Positions 8,405 to 49,852 of a stretch of 64,000 nucleotides of DNA are shown here, piece after piece. Source of the DNA: Chryseobacterium indologenes. Its GTDB lineage: Bacteria > Bacteroidota > Bacteroidia > Flavobacteriales > Weeksellaceae. Every line of letters starts with the position of its first letter. Positions within the stretch are counted from its first letter, which is position 1. The stretch spans positions 1,612,001 through 1,676,000 of the forward strand of contig CP065590.1 of NCBI GenBank assembly GCA_016025055.1. Reading direction: 5' to 3'. Both the position numbers and the translations under genes were made by a program. Under the pieces are notes generated by a model that was not told where the DNA came from, ran no database searches, and saw only the letters and a program-made list of their open reading frames with translations.

Positions 8405-10201
8405 TTAATCATTAAGCTTTAAAACAGCCATAAATGCAGATTGTGGTACTTCTACTCTTCCGATCTGCTTCATTTTTTTCTTCCCTTCTTTCTGTTTCTC
8501 CAATAATTTACGTTTTCTGGAAATATCTCCACCGTAACATTTTGCGGTAACATCTTTTCTTAGAGCCTTGATCGTTTCTCTTGCGATAACTTTCGTTCCC
8601 AATGCTGCCTGAACAGCGATATCAAACTGCTGTCTCGGGATCAGTTCACGAAGTTTCTCACACATTCTCTTACCGATATAGTAAGCATTACTGTCATGGA
8701 TCAGCGATGAAAGGGCATCTACCATGTCACCATTAATCAGAATATCCATTTTTACAAGCTTGGAAGCTCTGAATCCAATCGGATGGTAATCGAATGACGC
8801 ATATCCTTTAGAGATTGATTTTAACCTGTCATAGAAATCAAATACAACTTCTGCCAACGGCATGTTGAAAATCAATTCTACTCTTTCAGAAGTTAAATAA
8901 CTTTGGTTAACGATCTCCCCTCTTTTTTCAATACATAAGGTCATTACTGCTCCCACGAAATCGGACTTTGTAATGATAGAAGCTTTAATGAAAGGTTCTT
9001 CTACCCTGTCCATTGTTGAAGGGTCCATCATTTCTGACGGGTTATTGATCAGAATCGGAACTTCAGGTTCTTTTTTGGTATATCCGAAGTAAGAAACGTT
9101 GGGTACCGTTGTAATAACGTTCATATTGAATTCTCTATCCAAACGTTCCTGAACAATTTCCATGTGAAGCATTCCCAGAAATCCGCAACGGAACCCGAAA
9201 CCAAGGGCAGCGGAACTTTCCGGTTCAAAAACCAGGGAAGCATCATTCAATCTTAATTTCTCCAGAGAGAATCTTAATTCTTCAAAATCCTCAGAATCAA
9301 TTGGGTAGATACCGGCAAATACCATCGGTTTTACTTCTTCAAAACCATCAATTGGTCCATCTGCAGGTTTTTCAAAAGAGGTAATGGTATCTCCTACTTT
9401 TACTTCACGGGCATCTTTAATTCCGGAAACCAGATATCCTACATCTCCACACTGAATGGTTTTCTTAGGAACCTGTTTCAGCTTCAATGTACCCACCTCA
9501 TCAGCGCCATATTCCTTACCTGTGGCAAAAAATTTGATTTTTTCATTTTTTGTAATACTTCCGTTTACTACTTTGAAATATGCTTCAATTCCTCTGAACG
9601 GGTTATAAACCGAGTCAAAGATCAAAGCCTGAAGTGGTCCGTCAGGATTTCCAACAGGAGCCGGAATCCTTTCAACAATTTGTTCTAAAAGATGGTGAAC
9701 TCCTTCTCCTGTTTTTCCTGAAACTCTTAATACATCTTCATATTCGCAACCGATTAAATTCATAATTTCGTCGGTTACTTCTTCAGGGTTTGCAGAAGGA
9801 AGGTCAATTTTATTCAAAATTGGAATGATCGTAAGGTCATTTTCTAATGCTAAATAAAGATTACTGATGGTCTGTGCCTGGATACTTTGCGCAGCATCCA
9901 CAATAAGAAGGGCACCTTCACAAGCAGCAATAGAACGGGAAACTTCATAAGAAAAGTCTACGTGTCCCGGGGTATCGATAAGGTTTAAAATAAATTTTTC
10001 ACCTTTATACTCATAATCCATCTGGATCGCGTGTGACTTAATGGTAATCCCACGTTCTTTCTCCAAATCCATATCATCCAGCGTCTGAGACTGTAATTCT
10101 CTTTGGGTAACAGTGTTTGTATACTCCAAAAGACGGTCTGCCAAAGTACTTTTACCATGGTCGATATGAGCGATTATGCAAAAATTTCGTATGTTTTTCA
10201 T
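8405..10201 (-). CDS. lepA: Elongation factor 4 (LepA), back-translocating GTPase
   Basis: 598 residues, the normal LepA length. The GTPase motifs are all present: G1 AHIDHGKS near residue 10, the RGIT switch I, DTPGHVDF, and NKIDLP. The C-terminal LepA-specific region is seen in [20 protein letters not shown], a lysine-rich tail that contacts tRNA. LepA binds the ribosome and remodels stalled or mis-translocated complexes. It is a single gene with its own terminator at 8358-8382. A TATCTTTG -7-like box lies at 10221-10228 (minus strand), 20 nt upstream of the start. Confidence 0.98.
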
Positions 10202-10220
10202 TTAAGAATCTTGTAATTTG

Positions 10221-10228
10221 CAAAGATA
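10221..10228 (-). promoter_or_regulatory. -7 promoter box of lepA
   Basis: TATCTTTG on the minus strand fits the Bacteroidota TAnnTTTG consensus, 20 nt from the lepA ATG. No well-placed TTG -33 element was found. Confidence 0.45.
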
Positions 10229-10326
10229 AGAAAATGCAAGAGAATTTTTCATGCTTAATTTTTACTTTTAACTGAAACACAGATAACAATACTGATGAAA
10301 GTGAATTTTTCCTCTTTTTTCAATAT

Positions 10327-11346
10327 CTATTTAGTTTTACCAAAGTCTTCCGGTACAATATAATTTCCTGTAAAAGGATCAATATAAACCGGAACTCCTG
10401 AAGAAATATTCTTTTTGTTTGATACACTGGCATCGATAACGGCACCAATAATACCACCGACCAGACCACCCGCGGCTGCGCCAATTGTAACACCGGTTAC
10501 AGCTGTTTCAGGAAATAGTTCAGCTTTCGTCACCTCAATAAAAACTCCTTGATCATTTTTGAAAATCTCGGTATAACCTACCGGAATATTTTTATAGGCT
10601 CTGCCATCATATACAAAAGCGTAAAAATGTCTTATTGCCGTTTTTTCTTCTCCTTTTACTGCTTTTGTAATAATTCCTTTATTATTGGTTTGAAAAGTAA
10701 ATCCGGGTTCAGGATTATGGGTAAAAAAACTATAATAATCCCGGTAAACTCCTTCTTTTAATTCGTCTGTTTTTAAAATACTAAGCTTTTCTTTTAATAC
10801 CGAAGTATAGTCGGGAAGTTCGCTTTCTGAAAGAACATATTCCCACGGCGTGGCATTGTAGGATTTTTTTAACAGGTCTGTAAAAATTAATGTTACTTTT
10901 CTTGCTAAATTTTGCCCGAGATAAGGAGTCGTACGGGATGAAACGGTAGCAACCGTATCTTTTCTGTACACAAAATGATATCCATCTTCTTTTTTCATAA
11001 AAGTACTTGCTCTCAGTTCCAGTTTTCCGATGGAATATTTTTCCTTCTTGTCTTCCGAAATGTTCAGATTTTCCAGCACAAGAACCATATCATTCTGACC
11101 TCTCACCGGATTGTATTTGTAAAACCAATCTTTAAGATCTTTATCTGCTCCATTTTCAAAAACAACTTTCACTTCGTCTTTATGATGCATTACGCTTCCT
11201 ATTTCAGGATTTGTCCTTTGATCTATCACCGTAAAGTTTTTGATAGATTTTTTGTCATCTTTAATAGATTTTGAAAGATCAATAGTTTCTATTTTCTGAC
11301 CCAATAATAAGATTGAAAACAGTAAAAAGAAAAGTGATTTTTGCAT
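10327..11346 (-). CDS. Secreted hypothetical protein with glycine zipper
   Basis: A 339-residue protein with an N-terminal hydrophobic signal (LFFLLFSILLLGQ). The body is a mixed alpha/beta region with no family I recognise. Near residues 285-305 there is a glycine-zipper membrane-inserting segment (GVTIGAAAGGLVGGIIGAVI), followed by a short tail with VPVYIDPFTGNYIVPEDFG. The zipper suggests contact with the outer membrane. It is a single gene, about 100 nt from the terminator of the sigma-factor operon. Function unknown. Confidence 0.6.
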   Translation of the reverse strand: MQKSLFFLLFSILLLGQKIETIDLSKSIKDDKKSIKNFTVIDQRTNPEIGSVMHHKDEVKVVFENGADKDLKDWFYKYNPVRGQNDMVLVLENLNISEDKKEKYSIGKLELRASTFMKKEDGYHFVYRKDTVATVSSRTTPYLGQNLARKVTLIFTDLLKKSYNATPWEYVLSESELPDYTSVLKEKLSILKTDELKEGVYRDYYSFFTHNPEPGFTFQTNNKGIITKAVKGEEKTAIRHFYAFVYDGRAYKNIPVGYTEIFKNDQGVFIEVTKAELFPETAVTGVTIGAAAGGLVGGIIGAVIDASVSNKKNISSGVPVYIDPFTGNYIVPEDFGKTK

Positions 11347-43550: not shown

Positions 43551-44306
43551 ATGGATTTTCCTGTAACTTTTCACATTTTCGGTAAAACGATTCTTGCTCA
43601 TCCTCTTTTTGAGGCTGTTGGAATGTTTTTGGGAATGAGGTATTACTTTTATCTGAAAAGGAAATCCAAAGAAAAACTATCATTTAATACTTCTGCAGCA
43701 GTTTTGATCGGTGCTACAGCCGGTGCTCTGATCGGCTCGAAGCTGATCGGAAATCTTGAAAACCCTTACACATTCTGTGAGAATTTTAGTTTTACCAAGT
43801 TCTGGTCAAATAATACCATTGTCGGAGGGCTGGCGTTGGGTTTACTGGGCGTGGAGTTGGCCAAAAAGATCGTACATCACAAAGAAAGTACCGGTGACCT
43901 CATTGTTTTTCCTTTAATGTTTGCCATGATTATTGGGCGGATCGGATGTTTCCTTACCGGCATTTATGAAGAAACCTATGGCATTCCCACTGATTCTTTC
44001 TTTGGAATGCATTTAGGGGATCGGTACCTCAGGCATCCTGTAGCTTTGTACGAAATAGTTTTTCTCATTGTTCTCTGGATAGGATTAAAATACATTCAGA
44101 GTCTTAAAAAATATCCGTCAGGGTTTATTTTTCAGCTTTTTATGCTGGGCTATTTTACGTTCAGGTTCTTTTTGGACTTTATCAAACCAAGGGTAGAAAT
44201 CGTTGTAAATCTTGGTACAATTCAAATCGTGTGTATCTCTGTAATTATTTATTACATTTATACTATTAAAAACACCAGGACTTTATATTTAAAATATTCA
44301 AGATGA
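43551..44306 (+). CDS. Prolipoprotein diacylglyceryl transferase-like protein (Lgt paralogue)
   Basis: 251 residues, about seven transmembrane helices. It keeps Lgt landmarks: GRIGCFLTGIYEETYG (Lgt has GRIGNFINGE), HPVALYE, and LGYFTFRFFLDFIKPR near the C-terminus. The Lgt His-Gly-Gly (catalytic His103 of E. coli) reads IVGG here, so the His is missing; shorter than typical Bacteroidota Lgt. It may handle a lipid other than phosphatidylglycerol-to-protein transfer, perhaps in cooperation with the radical-SAM enzyme two genes downstream. It overlaps the next gene by 4 nt (ATGA). Confidence 0.75.
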   Translation: MDFPVTFHIFGKTILAHPLFEAVGMFLGMRYYFYLKRKSKEKLSFNTSAAVLIGATAGALIGSKLIGNLENPYTFCENFSFTKFWSNNTIVGGLALGLLGVELAKKIVHHKESTGDLIVFPLMFAMIIGRIGCFLTGIYEETYGIPTDSFFGMHLGDRYLRHPVALYEIVFLIVLWIGLKYIQSLKKYPSGFIFQLFMLGYFTFRFFLDFIKPRVEIVVNLGTIQIVCISVIIYYIYTIKNTRTLYLKYSR

Positions 44307-44540
44307 AAACAATAACCATTTTAGAAGCTGGCAATCTGGGCGGTGTAGTGGTAATGATCATTGGGATTATTATTTTGGGCGCCCTGTTTTTTTCCCTTGT
44401 CGTCACTGTTGTGGCAAAAATCATCTATGAATGGAAGGGAGACAGAAAATTTACTAAAAAAACAATTTATCCAGACCATGCTTATATGCCTTCTGATCTG
44501 TGGACTGATCAGCGGTTATATTTGCGGTGGAGGATTTTAA
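44303..44540 (+). CDS. Two-TM small membrane protein (frameshifted at A7 tract)
   Basis: A 4-nt overlap with the Lgt-like gene. Read directly, the frame runs on past 44540 with a non-membrane tail. If the A7 tract at 44456-44462 carries one extra A, the product is a 78-residue protein with two helices: GVVVMIIGIIILGALFFSLV and QTMLICLLICGLISGYICGG, joined by a basic loop (EWKGDRKFTKKQ), ending in GGGF. The stop at 44540 then leaves 10 nt before the radical-SAM ATG. The rebuilt form makes far better sense as a real gene. Function unknown. Confidence 0.6.
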
Positions 44541-44550
44541 AATTTTGCCT

Positions 44551-45954
44551 ATGCCAGTAAGAAATTATACCTATTACGATTATACAATAAGCCTTTGCCC
44601 GGAATGCCTTAAAAGAGTCGGCGCTAAGATTATTATCGAGGATGAAGCGGTTTTTATGACCAAAAGATGTCCTGATCATGGGTTCTTTAAAACAAAAATA
44701 GCTTCTGATGTACATTATTATAAAAACATAAGAAACTACAATAAAGCCTCAGAAATGCCCCTTCATTTCGGAACCGATGTAGAATATGGCTGTCCTTATG
44801 ACTGTGGACTTTGCGTTGATCATGAACAACACAGCTGCCTTTCTATTGTGGAAGTGACAGATCGTTGCAATCTGACCTGTCCCACCTGTTACGCAATGTC
44901 TTCCCCACATTATGGAAGCCATAGAAGCCTGGAAGAAATTGAAGCCATGTTTGATGTTATTGTGAAAAATGAAGGTGAGCCCGATGTAGTCCAGATCAGT
45001 GGAGGAGAGCCTACCATTCATCCGGAGTTTTTTAAAATTATGGATATCGCCAAGTCGAAACCGATAAAACATCTGATGCTGAATACCAACGGCATCAGAA
45101 TTGCCAACGACCCGGGATTTGCAGAAAAACTGGCCACTTATGCTCCTGAATTTGAAGTCTACCTTCAGTTTGATTCATTTAAACCGGAAGTATTGGAAGA
45201 TTTCAGGGGAAAGGACCTGACAGCAGTACGGATGAAAGCGTTGGAAAAACTTAACGAGCTAAATCTTTCCACCACACTCGTTATTGTCCTTCAAAAAGAT
45301 AAGAATATCGATGAAATCGGAAAAATTATAGAATTTGCTTTGAAGCAGAAGTGTGTTAGGGGAATAACCTTCCAGCCTGTTGAGATTGCAGGAAGAAACA
45401 GGGAAGATTCTGCTCATGAAAAGATCACGTTAACTGAGGTCAGGCAGGAAATTATCAGGCAGTTTCCCTTATTGAATTCTGATGATATTATTCCCGTTCC
45501 ATGTAATCCGGACGCTTTAGCAATGGGATATATCTTAAAACTTCAGGGAGAAACCATTCCTTTAACCAGGTATATCAACCCTGCAGATCTTTTGAATAAT
45601 GAATCAAGAAATACCATTGTTTATGAGCAGGATAAAGGGCTCCATATGCAGTTGCTGGATATATTCAGCACCGGAATTTCTGTCGATAAAGTGCAGCCCA
45701 AGGTCAATCAGTTGCTATGCTGTCTGCCGGAAGTTTCTGCTCCGGATCTTGACTATGATAACCTGTTTAGAATTATCATCATGAACTTTATGGATGCACA
45801 TGATTTTGATGTAAGGGCTGTCAAAAAATCCTGTGTTCACATTGTTAATAAAGATCTTAAGCTAATCCCTTTTGAAACTATGAATCTTTTCTACAGAGAC
45901 GACAAAAAAGCTTTTCTCGAAGAACTGAGAAAAGAAGATAAAGTACTATTTTAA
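44551..45954 (+). CDS. Radical SAM protein resembling archaeal tetraether lipid synthase (Tes/MJ0619-like)
   Basis: About 467 residues from the ATG at 44551 (MPVRNYTYYDY). N-terminal zinc-ribbon-like SLCPECLKRV and KRCPDHGFF, then GCPYDCGLCVDHEQHSC, followed by the radical SAM cluster motif TDRCNLTCPTC (CxxxCxxC) and GGEPT for SAM. The C-terminal region (LLCCLPEV, IIIMNFMDAHDFDVRAVKKSC) matches the extra FeS-cluster part of Tes-type enzymes, which join two lipid tails by C-C bonds between unactivated carbons. Activity on Bacteroidota lipids is inference. It is the third gene of a three-gene operon. Confidence 0.75.
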   Translation: MPVRNYTYYDYTISLCPECLKRVGAKIIIEDEAVFMTKRCPDHGFFKTKIASDVHYYKNIRNYNKASEMPLHFGTDVEYGCPYDCGLCVDHEQHSCLSIVEVTDRCNLTCPTCYAMSSPHYGSHRSLEEIEAMFDVIVKNEGEPDVVQISGGEPTIHPEFFKIMDIAKSKPIKHLMLNTNGIRIANDPGFAEKLATYAPEFEVYLQFDSFKPEVLEDFRGKDLTAVRMKALEKLNELNLSTTLVIVLQKDKNIDEIGKIIEFALKQKCVRGITFQPVEIAGRNREDSAHEKITLTEVRQEIIRQFPLLNSDDIIPVPCNPDALAMGYILKLQGETIPLTRYINPADLLNNESRNTIVYEQDKGLHMQLLDIFSTGISVDKVQPKVNQLLCCLPEVSAPDLDYDNLFRIIIMNFMDAHDFDVRAVKKSCVHIVNKDLKLIPFETMNLFYRDDKKAFLEELRKEDKVLF

Positions 45955-47723: not shown

Positions 47724-49852
47724 ATGTGGAAAAATTTCAAACTGAATAAATTTTTACTTCTAATTCCATTAACCAGTCTAATGTTTTGTTTCAACTCGCC
47801 AAAGAATGACGATGAAAAGATGCAAACAATAATGGTGAGCGTAAAAAACACTCTTTCTTATCTTCATTATAGCCCGAAACCTATCAATGATGCTTACTCA
47901 AAAGACGTTTATAAGCATTATTTTGAATTGGTAGATCCGGCCAAAAGATATTTCCTGCAATCTGATATGGATGAATTCAGCAAACATGAAACAAAGCTGG
48001 ATGATTATATCAACCTTGGAGATCTATCTTTTTATAAGCTTACCATCGACAGGCTTTACCAGAGAGTAGATGAGATCGATAAAATCACTCAGGACATTTT
48101 CAGCAAGCCTATCAACCTGCAGGAAGATGAAACCCTAACTTTGGAACCTAAGCTTAAAAAAGTACCTGCCAACAAGCAGGAACAATATAATGAGTGGAAA
48201 AAATTCATCAAGTACAATATCCTTCAGGAAATTGAATCGATGAACAGCAAAGAAGAAGCCCAGAAAGAGAAAAAAGATTCTGTTCAGAAATATAAATTAA
48301 AAGATACCATCAAGTTTAAACCTCTTACTCAGGATGAGAAGATCAAAAAAGCTACGGATGAGGTAAAAGATCTTGTAAAAGATACCTTCACAAGATTCAA
48401 AAAGAGAAAGAAAATGGATTGGTTTACGGTATATATGAATGCATATACCGAAGTATTTGATCCTCATACCAACTATTATTCGCCAAAAGATAAAGAAGAT
48501 TTTGATACCCAGTTTACCGGAAAAGTAATCGGTATCGGAGCTATTATCCAGGAGAAAAAAGGAAACCTTTATTTAGGAGCCCTTACGATTGGTGCTCCGG
48601 CGTGGAAATCCAAACAGCTTTCGGAGGGAGACAAAATATTGAAAGTAAAGTCTAAGCCGAAGGATGACGCCGTGAATGTAGTAGGAATGCTTTCTGATGA
48701 GGCAGTAAGGCTGATCAGAGGTGAGAAAGGGACTCCGGTAACCTTAACGGTTCAGAAAAAGACGGATCTATTAAAGACGTAACGATGATTCGTGAGGAAG
48801 TCGCTATTGAAGATACATTTGCAAGAAGTATCACGGTAAATGCTCCGAACGGAAAGAAATACGGTTTCATCAACCTGCCAAGTTTTAATGCAGATTTTGA
48901 AAATGCAAAAGGAAGAAATGCTTCCGATGATATTAAAAATGAGATTATAAAACTTAAATCTCAGAACATCGAAGGGATAGTTCTTGACCTTAGGAATAAT
49001 GGTGGAGGCTCACTGACGGAAGTAGGGGATATTATGGGACTTTTCATGGAAGCTGGACCTTATGTTCAGGTGAAAGACGGAAACGGAAAAATCCAGACTT
49101 TAAAGAATAAAAATGAGACACCAATATGGACAGGTCCGTTAGTCATCATGCAAAACGAGCTTTCCGCTTCAGCTTCAGAGATTCTGGCGGGAGTAATGCA
49201 GGATAACGGAAGAGCAATGATTATCGGGTCGCCGCAGTCTTTCGGGAAAGGTACGGTTCAGACATTCGTAGACCTGAACAGGTTTTTAAATACTGAAGAT
49301 GATTTCGGTTCTTTAAAACTGACCATTCAGAAGTTCTACAGAATCACCGGTGAATCTACCCAGAGAAAAGGGATTGTTTCTGATATTCAGATGAAAGATT
49401 TCTTTACCTACGCAGAAGTAGGAGAGCGTTACGATGATTTTGCATTGGCCTGGGATAAAATTCCGCCAACAAAATTCCAGAAACTGAACTATTTCAATAT
49501 TCAGGCTCTTGAAAAAGCAAGTGCAGAAAGAATGGCAAAAAACAGCAATTATCAGCTGTTATTGGAGTCTGCCCAATGGAGAGAAAAACTGGATAAAGAA
49601 GAAAACATCACGCTGAACATCAATAAATTCAATGAGCTGATGAAGCACAGAAAAGCGCAGATTGAAAAATTCAAAGTATTGACAAAATTTGAGAACGGAC
49701 TTCAGTTTATCATGTATCCGGCTGAGGTTGAAAGAGAGAAAAAAGATGAAGCTTTCAAGAAAAAATCTGAAATGTGGATCAAGAATCTGAAAAAAGATCT
49801 GTATCTGCAGGAAGCAATGAATATTGTTTCAGAGATGGGAAGCAAATCATAA
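47724..49852 (+). CDS. prc: Tail-specific (C-terminal processing) protease, S41A family (frameshifted)
   Basis: About 709 residues once one A is restored in the A5 tract at 48756-48760 (the join then reads TVQKKDGSIKDVTMIREEV). N-terminal signal and Prc N-domain (1-230), PDZ (about 250-350: GIGAIIQEKKGNLY, GAPAWKSKQLSEGDKI), and S41 core with GIVLDLRNNGGG, catalytic Ser in ELSASASEI, and Lys in SFGKGTVQ. It degrades or trims periplasmic proteins with unstructured C-termini. A strong terminator follows at 49858. Confidence 0.93.

Follow-up and report, generated by a model that had tools for sequence, protein, structure and literature searches.

A conserved gene cassette joining an Lgt paralogue, a Cys-tailed small membrane protein and a Tes-like radical SAM enzyme: a candidate system for radical lipid chemistry on a microprotein

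In a 64,000-nucleotide stretch of the Chryseobacterium indologenes genome (contig CP065590.1, positions 1,612,001 to 1,676,000; the whole of this stretch is referred to as the window), we identified three consecutive genes encoding a paralogue of the lipoprotein diacylglyceryl transferase Lgt, a small membrane protein and a radical S-adenosylmethionine (SAM) protein related to tetraether synthase (Tes). The three genes almost certainly constitute a functional unit, and with a probability of about 0.5 we propose that they form one cassette making a lipid-modified microprotein, the lipid of which would be altered by radical chemistry. Judged from comparison with related loci, the small protein is probably the substrate of the Lgt paralogue, and an alkyl chain is the likely target of the radical enzyme. 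The genes and the Cys sets of the radical SAM protein are as follows.

43551..44306, + strand: Lgt-like integral membrane protein of 251 residues, a dedicated paralogue with GRxGC for GRxGN (Pfam LGT, active-site alignment, Foldseek).
44303..44560, + strand: small membrane-protein gene, a mechanical open reading frame (ORF) of 85 residues with the first transmembrane (TM) helix in frame (near-identical intact 78-residue database version).
44551..45954, + strand: Tes-like radical SAM protein, 467 residues from its ATG (Pfam, NCBIfam, PDB and fold matches).
Cys sets of the radical SAM protein: N-cluster CxxxCxxC at C81, C85 and C88; radical SAM CxxxCxxC at C106, C110 and C113; C-terminal C318, C390, C391 and C428.

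The small protein is the most informative part of the three-gene set. All but two of 120 non-identical loci encode it (118, the window's own frame-broken copy counted as one); 111 of these were obtained from an ORF scan, which includes that copy, and seven from frames read by eye, while L155-L157 and shorter duplicate loci had been left out beforehand. Most of the 120 loci are from Weeksellaceae because the best 80 of 140 were kept, and outside the window's family the small protein is present in 23/25 genomes. Its gene lies between the Lgt-like and radical SAM genes in the window's family (named loci from Chryseobacterium, Epilithonimonas and Elizabethkingia), after the radical SAM gene in families f3, f17, f18, f43 and f58, and after the Lgt-like gene in genomes G176, G424 and G211. 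Across families the proteins share the same end, consisting of a K/R-rich loop, a helix of ~16 residues and a Cys near the C-terminus. A Cys occurs within the last 22 residues in 125/127 candidate ORFs. When the window copy and two spurious-looking ORFs lacking a late Cys (L106 and L144) were left out, 122 unique ORFs were obtained, all of which have their last Cys 1-14 residues before the C-terminus. This Cys is preceded by an uncharged run averaging 16.5 residues, ahead of which a net positive segment is found in 113/122; the tail is neutral in 116/122, and the last Cys is the sole Cys of the protein in 30/122.

A regular expression describing this tail gave 99 matches in the cassettes of 95 loci and 13 in the 1.04 Mb of flanking DNA that served as control, both strands being read; the matches outside the cassettes look, by eye, like chance frames. 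By locus, 90/95 were matched, among them L147, where the matching frame lies within the radical SAM gene and is due to chance; those missed were L054, L150, L151 and L153, where the gene is present, and L148, where the contig ends. All of five further cassettes (L156, L161 and L165-L167) were matched as well, whereas none of five related radical SAM loci devoid of Lgt (L155, L157 and L162-L164) has a matching same-strand ORF nearby; a single opposite-strand match at L162 is chance-like. Two Cys-tailed copies are present in 13/120 loci and on both of the Mycobacterium plasmids described below, as expected of a substrate.

A positive region, a hydrophobic region and then a Cys make up the pattern of a lipoprotein signal, and the small proteins of the relatives conform to it (the window copy being frame-broken). 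The classical lipobox, [LVI][ASTVI][GAS]C, belongs to an N-terminal signal; no such signal was found in the small proteins, where the Cys is C-terminal. The tail is thus like a lipoprotein signal placed at the wrong end. Since the positive segment precedes the last helix, the positive-inside rule would place the Cys outside. The small protein had at first been treated as an accessory; the comparison suggests a substrate instead. In the window's family and in f3, many small proteins also carry a conserved N-terminal 'LEVGNLGGL'-like motif ahead of the first helix (e.g., L140:9845-10042), perhaps a recognition site.

The Lgt-like protein matches Pfam LGT with 79 bits (cut-off 24.9), while it stays far below the NCBIfam lgt equivalog cut-offs (44.1 of 334 and 37.1 of 118.9 bits), and two other LGT-family loci in the same genome score higher (185 and 151 bits). 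The best Foldseek match of its AlphaFold model is E. coli Lgt (5azb, E 2.1e-4, TM-scores 0.58/0.52). In the E. coli enzyme, activity is abolished by changes of H103, R143 and E151, and catalysis is proposed to centre on R143 together with R239 (PMC4728403). Alignment of 17 Lgt-like proteins, in E. coli numbering, showed R143, E202, Y235, R239, G142, G145, G154, R195, H196 and P197 to be invariant, N146 to be replaced by Cys in 17/17 and Y26 by His in 14/17. The set H103, R143, E151 and R239 is accordingly incomplete, R143 and R239 alone being kept (17/17). As R143/R239 are invariant and H103, E151 and N146 are replaced, the centre of diacylglyceryl transfer appears to be kept and other parts changed. 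A second ordinary-type Lgt locus of the genome (L002, G000:C1:3011450-3012025) has an open frame covering only positions 62-239 of the Lgt profile and is possibly broken or truncated.

The radical SAM protein belongs to the Tes superfamily. It contains Pfam Radical_SAM and, at the N-terminus, the HMPTM zinc ribbon (PF23545; a CxxC and a second Cys/His pair), and of the markers of Tes it has the rubredoxin-like C-x2-C...C-x2-H, the N-cluster CxxxCxxC and the radical SAM CxxxCxxC. Its best sequence match in the PDB is the tetraether synthase MJ0619 (7TOL/7TOM, E 3.7e-61), the next being at E 3.4e-6, and its AlphaFold model matches 7TOL best, over the whole length (E 1.7e-30, TM-scores 0.62/0.59). 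A preliminary description made from this DNA alone had pointed to an operon with a Tes relationship, to radical SAM motifs comprising a Cys-rich N-terminus, GCPYDCGLC and FMDAHDFD...SC, and to an Lgt paralogue without the histidine of the His-Gly-Gly motif. The linkage and the relationship are supported by our results, the motifs are all present together with CNLTCPTC, and indeed nothing in the paralogue aligns with His103. Among the matches listed, the nearest named loci for the radical SAM protein are from Chryseobacterium, at 98% identity.

At the level of curated families the assignment is less close. The protein reached 277 bits with the Tes model (NCBIfam NF045702, cut-off 450), and the best-scoring curated model, TrsS (NF045646), gave 319.8 bits over nearly the whole length, below its cut-off of 490; assignment to the TrsS system was rejected on this ground. 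We aligned 18 radical SAM proteins from Bacteroidota cassettes with four of an actinobacterial type, three of a methyltransferase-linked type and two of Tes type (L155, which passes the Tes cut-off, and L157, placed by the tree). The zinc-ribbon and radical SAM Cys are present in every protein, while the N-cluster CxxxCxxC occurs in 18/18 Bacteroidota proteins and in 0/4 of the actinobacterial type. Columns 322, 427 and 442 hold Cys in both Tes-type and in 4/4 actinobacterial-type proteins; judging from conservation, these and column 428 are probably the C-terminal cluster ligands in Tes-type proteins. In the Bacteroidota cassettes only 428 of this set is retained throughout (18/18), and C318 (18/18), C390 and C391 (15/18 each) are conserved. 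C318 is common to the other bacterial branches and missing from the two Tes-type proteins aligned. In Tes, the C-terminal cluster is the proposed holder of an S-bound alkyl intermediate (PMC9433317). With the Cys at 322, 427 and 442 lost and another Cys set conserved, the corresponding cluster of the cassette enzyme would be either differently ligated or absent. Tetraether-type coupling by this enzyme is plausible, not shown, in view of the missed Tes and TrsS cut-offs and the three lost Cys.

Two side results concern the same protein superfamily. The L155 protein (9364-10821 of that locus; genome G121, same phylum) reached 493.8 bits against the Tes cut-off of 450 and lies outside any cassette, with no Lgt-like ORF in the 19.5 kb read around it; it is a candidate for a true tetraether-type synthase. 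In a PADLOC search for anti-phage defence the only matches were weak ones of viperin type, to the radical SAM core, and a defence role was rejected.

The preliminary description had proposed to check co-occurrence across Bacteroidota, and the trio proved conserved. In 395 genomes of the phylum, the radical SAM protein of this clade (E at most 6.2e-99) is present in 31, and the Lgt-like protein (E at most 1.1e-25) in the same 31 and in G074; no genome has the radical SAM protein alone. Among 59 relatives, own genome included, the same 30 genomes have both genes and none has one alone; the radical SAM orthologues are 94-100% identical within the genus and 69% identical in one other family. Fisher's test gave p = 2.8e-45 for the 395 and p = 1.7e-17 for the 59 genomes, values inflated because the genomes are related. 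The 31 genomes span ten families, as numbered by the tool, and in 25 genomes outside the window's family the pair is directly adjacent in 20 and separated by intervening genes in three (G176, G424 and G211). These counts depend on the following thresholds. At E 0.001, 39 of the 59 relatives were matched, of which 30 strong matches were counted and nine weak ones (E 9e-11 or weaker, other radical SAM proteins) left out. In the 395 genomes, 34 were matched by the radical SAM protein at 1e-40, and G121, G151 and G356 were left out (E 1e-42 to 1e-47); G121 and G356 have no Lgt-like match, and G151 has the actinobacterial type of cassette. The Lgt-like protein matched 36 genomes at 1e-12, of which G125, G243, G278 and G308 (E about 1e-14, 28-33% identity) were left out and may represent ordinary Lgts or other paralogues.

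Some members of the group depart from the common arrangement. G074 (locus L158), the sole genome of the 395 with the Lgt-like gene and without a radical SAM gene of the clade, encodes an Lgt-like protein that groups with a cassette protein of f3 (90/84); its long branch would suit a gene in decay or one put to another use. The divergent cassettes L152, L153 and L154 also encode a DUF4395 membrane protein whose tail is rich in Cys, and L154 has, between its radical SAM and Lgt-like genes, a gene for an ICMT/PEMT-like membrane methyltransferase.

The three-gene set is present in two phyla, in some Bacteroidota and in a few actinobacteria. A tblastn search of the plasmid database PLSDB gave ten records, seven of which were read. 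The Persicobacter record carries the Bacteroidota-type cassette, and two Mycobacterium plasmids each have a row of genes consisting of one annotated as Lgt family, two for small proteins that end in the same tail (e.g., ...SAGYCTGLNP...) and one for a radical SAM protein. In Nonomuraea, the Lgt and radical SAM genes are direct neighbours and a frame homologous to the small protein lies upstream, and G151, assigned by the tool to the window's phylum, carries the Mycobacterium-type cassette. In a tree of 28 radical SAM proteins, the 22 cassette proteins are separated from the Tes and methyltransferase types by a branch with support 95/86, and the Bacteroidota cassettes alone received 94/89. In a tree of 26 Lgt proteins, a 100/100 branch separates the 23 cassette proteins from three ordinary Lgts; the Bacteroidota cassette proteins alone are unsupported as a clade (41/39). 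The tree program warned of long branches, and the Lgt tree took in the three ordinary Lgts and no other Lgt paralogues; for these reasons a single origin of the cassette is likely rather than proven. A related radical SAM gene from Mycolicibacterium and two haloarchaeal plasmids (L162, L163 and L164) is paired with a gene for a methyltransferase domain, with no Lgt nearby, and constitutes another uncharacterised branch.

The small gene of the window begins at 44303, within an ATGA overlap with the end of the Lgt-like gene. As sequenced, it encodes 85 residues with one TM helix and runs to 44560, sharing 10 nt with the beginning of the radical SAM gene. The second TM helix and the Cys tail are found in a different frame, which closes at 44540 and leaves 10 nt up to the radical SAM ATG; the two frames part at a run of seven A (44456-44462). 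The overlap at the gene start had been described correctly before, while the two TM helices and the 10-nt gap hold for the intact form only. An intact 78-residue version (P0242), identical to the window's at the N-terminus and nearly identical in the tail, is present on 37 database contigs; the 85-residue version (P0290) is on three, and intact copies are present in close relatives. The break may be due to mutation, assembly error or slippage, and assembly error is a live option because the tail-specific protease gene in the window is also split. The latter (47724-49852; TSP N-terminal domain and PDZ, followed by S41 and DUF3340) is read as two adjacent ORFs in different frames, and the change of frame near 48780 is a second frame break in this assembly. 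For the radical SAM gene, GTG at 44527 offers a longer mechanical start than the ATG. The three genes are flanked by a divergent gene of the IMP dehydrogenase/GMP reductase family and a convergent surE gene.

The proposed mechanism brings these results together. With its positive loop, last hydrophobic helix and C-terminal Cys at the outer membrane face, the small protein would mimic a lipoprotein signal. A dedicated Lgt paralogue is fixed beside a protein with an Lgt-type tail, and the simplest account is that one modifies the other: the paralogue, with Arg143/Arg239 and Glu202 kept and donor-side residues changed, would transfer a diacylglyceryl or similar lipid to the C-terminal Cys. Tes binds two phospholipids in its pocket, with a tail at the radical site (PMC9433317), and the cassette enzyme would likewise act on alkyl chains by way of a 5'-deoxyadenosyl radical. 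These chains would belong either to the donor lipid, prior to transfer, or to the lipid once it is attached, with C-C coupling or C-S bond formation as candidate outcomes. Sequence comparison establishes the fixed association of the genes, the anatomy of their products, the conserved residues and the occurrence in two phyla, whereas an outward-facing and lipidated Cys, the Lgt paralogue as the enzyme responsible and alkyl chains as the radical target are predictions.

Several observations weigh against this proposal. In the strain of the window itself the frame of the small gene appears interrupted, and no adjacent small gene was found at L147 and L148 (2/120 loci), of which only L148 is at a contig end. 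G089 and G326 carry the Lgt-like and radical SAM genes on different contigs, both genes well inside them. The residue before the Cys is Ile or Val in 102/122 small ORFs, unlike a normal lipobox, and the outward-facing Cys is predicted from the positive-inside rule rather than by a topology program. No residue of the Lgt-like proteins aligns with H103 (0/17) and E151 is present in 0/17; as both are indispensable in E. coli Lgt, transferase activity is not assured. In the radical SAM proteins of the Bacteroidota cassettes, Cys is found at column 322 in 1/18 and at 427 and 442 in 0/18, a loss at three positions conserved in Tes-type proteins. Finally, confidence in the AlphaFold models is medium (mean pLDDT 62 for the Lgt-like and 63 for the radical SAM protein).

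These points leave room for other explanations. The radical SAM enzyme might couple ordinary lipid tails into bulk membrane-spanning or dimeric lipids, the Lgt-like protein changing head groups and the small protein acting as an accessory subunit. Tes as the nearest structure, the retained zinc ribbon, N-cluster and radical SAM Cys, and the proposal that bacterial Tes homologues make branched tetraethers (PMC8941075) are in line with such a role. We nevertheless regard it as unlikely: bulk synthesis is not implied when the C-terminal Cys set is altered by three losses and the Tes cut-off is missed, and the dedicated Lgt and the Cys-tailed small protein, companions of this clade, would be left unexplained, neither an Lgt-like nor a same-strand Cys-tailed ORF being found at the scanned Tes-type (L155 and L157) and methyltransferase-type (L162-L164) loci. 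A further proposal accounts for the small protein in another way, as the precursor of a ribosomally synthesized and post-translationally modified peptide (RiPP). The radical SAM enzyme would then modify the peptide itself, for example by forming a thioether at the Cys or close to it, while the Lgt paralogue would do no more than anchor it. Against this, the best scores come from the TrsS and Tes models, with the RiPP-maturase models listed far behind, and membrane helix makes up much of the small protein, whose Cys is predicted outside, away from a cytosolic enzyme. This makes the proposal rather improbable, even if small, fast-varying and sometimes duplicated genes do adjoin the radical SAM gene and lipidated RiPPs exist, DAG-RiPPs (DAG, diacylglyceryl) being described as shown for the dyb and ned clusters and predicted for chr-like clusters of Bacteroidota (PMC12636315).

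The replacement of H103, E151 and N146 could also mean that the Lgt-like protein is no transferase at all and instead a lipid-binding or flipping partner, with the small Cys protein as its redox or regulatory subunit; the extra DUF4395 gene in three operons and the ICMT/PEMT-like gene in one of them would suit this. It is hard to reconcile with the invariance of R143, R239, E202 and Y235 (17/17), and a C-terminal Cys after a positive loop and a helix, the only Cys in 30 of the 122 proteins, is no obvious redox design, so that we hold this possibility, too, to be doubtful. The original annotation of MJ0619, '7,8-dihydro-6-hydroxymethylpterin dimethyltransferase', under which some homologues are still named in databases, would imply methylation of a pterin or another cofactor. 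Lloyd et al., in their account of the enzyme, could not corroborate this role and judged the pocket unsuited (PMC9433317), and it gives no account of the Lgt-like and small genes; we consider it highly improbable and rejected it.

The preferred reading, a microprotein carrying a lipid altered by radical chemistry, would connect one bacterial branch of Tes relatives with a lipid transferase of its own and with a concrete candidate substrate, in which a single Cys can be put to the test. We know of no Lgt-type (diacylglyceryl) signal at a C-terminus so far; C-terminal prenylation in eukaryotes is a different chemistry. If true, the cassette would provide the first such signal, and also radical lipid chemistry in easily grown bacteria. 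In its most far-reaching form, in which the tails of a C-terminally lipidated microprotein with its own Lgt paralogue are coupled by the Tes-like enzyme into a membrane-spanning or cross-linked anchor, the proposal is speculative and unlikely; if true, it would mean a previously unrecognised class of proteolipids in ordinary bacteria.

Bacterial Tes homologues of unproven function have been noted by Lloyd et al. (PMC9433317) and Zeng et al. (PMC8941075), and Tes homologues later in Black Sea genomes (PMC11868695). In the open-access PMC literature we found no title or abstract in which an Lgt paralogue and a Tes-like enzyme are brought together or the small protein is described, which is not proof of absence. 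With Tes, also known as GDGT-MAS (MJ0619, 7TOL/7TOM, NF045702), the cassette enzyme has in common the zinc ribbon or rubredoxin-like N-terminus, the N-cluster CxxxCxxC, the radical SAM core and the C-terminal FMDAxxFD region; it differs in its score (277 of 450 bits), in lacking Cys 322, 427 and 442, in having its own C390/C391 and in its linkage to an Lgt and a microprotein. TrsS (NF045646) is its best curated model, with 320 bits under the cut-off of 490; it is also the best-scoring model for the methyltransferase-linked homologues from Mycolicibacterium and Haloarcula, which likewise miss the cut-off, form another branch and have no Lgt nearby. The paralogue shares with E. coli Lgt (phosphatidylglycerol:prolipoprotein diacylglyceryl transferase, 5AZB) the Pfam LGT domain, the Lgt fold, Arg143/Arg239 and Glu202, whereas it has lost H103 and E151 and has Cys for N146 (17/17) and His for Y26 (14/17). 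The DAG-RiPPs, lipidated RiPPs made with MNIO enzymes (Chen et al., 2025 preprint, PMC12636315), are similar in that a small gene-encoded peptide enters lipoprotein-type lipidation; as the preprint describes them, they use an N-terminal signal and the ubiquitous lipoprotein pathway, whereas in the cassette the Cys is C-terminal and its partners are a Tes-like enzyme and an Lgt paralogue specific to the set. The parts are of known kinds; to our knowledge, their arrangement and the putative C-terminal signal are new.

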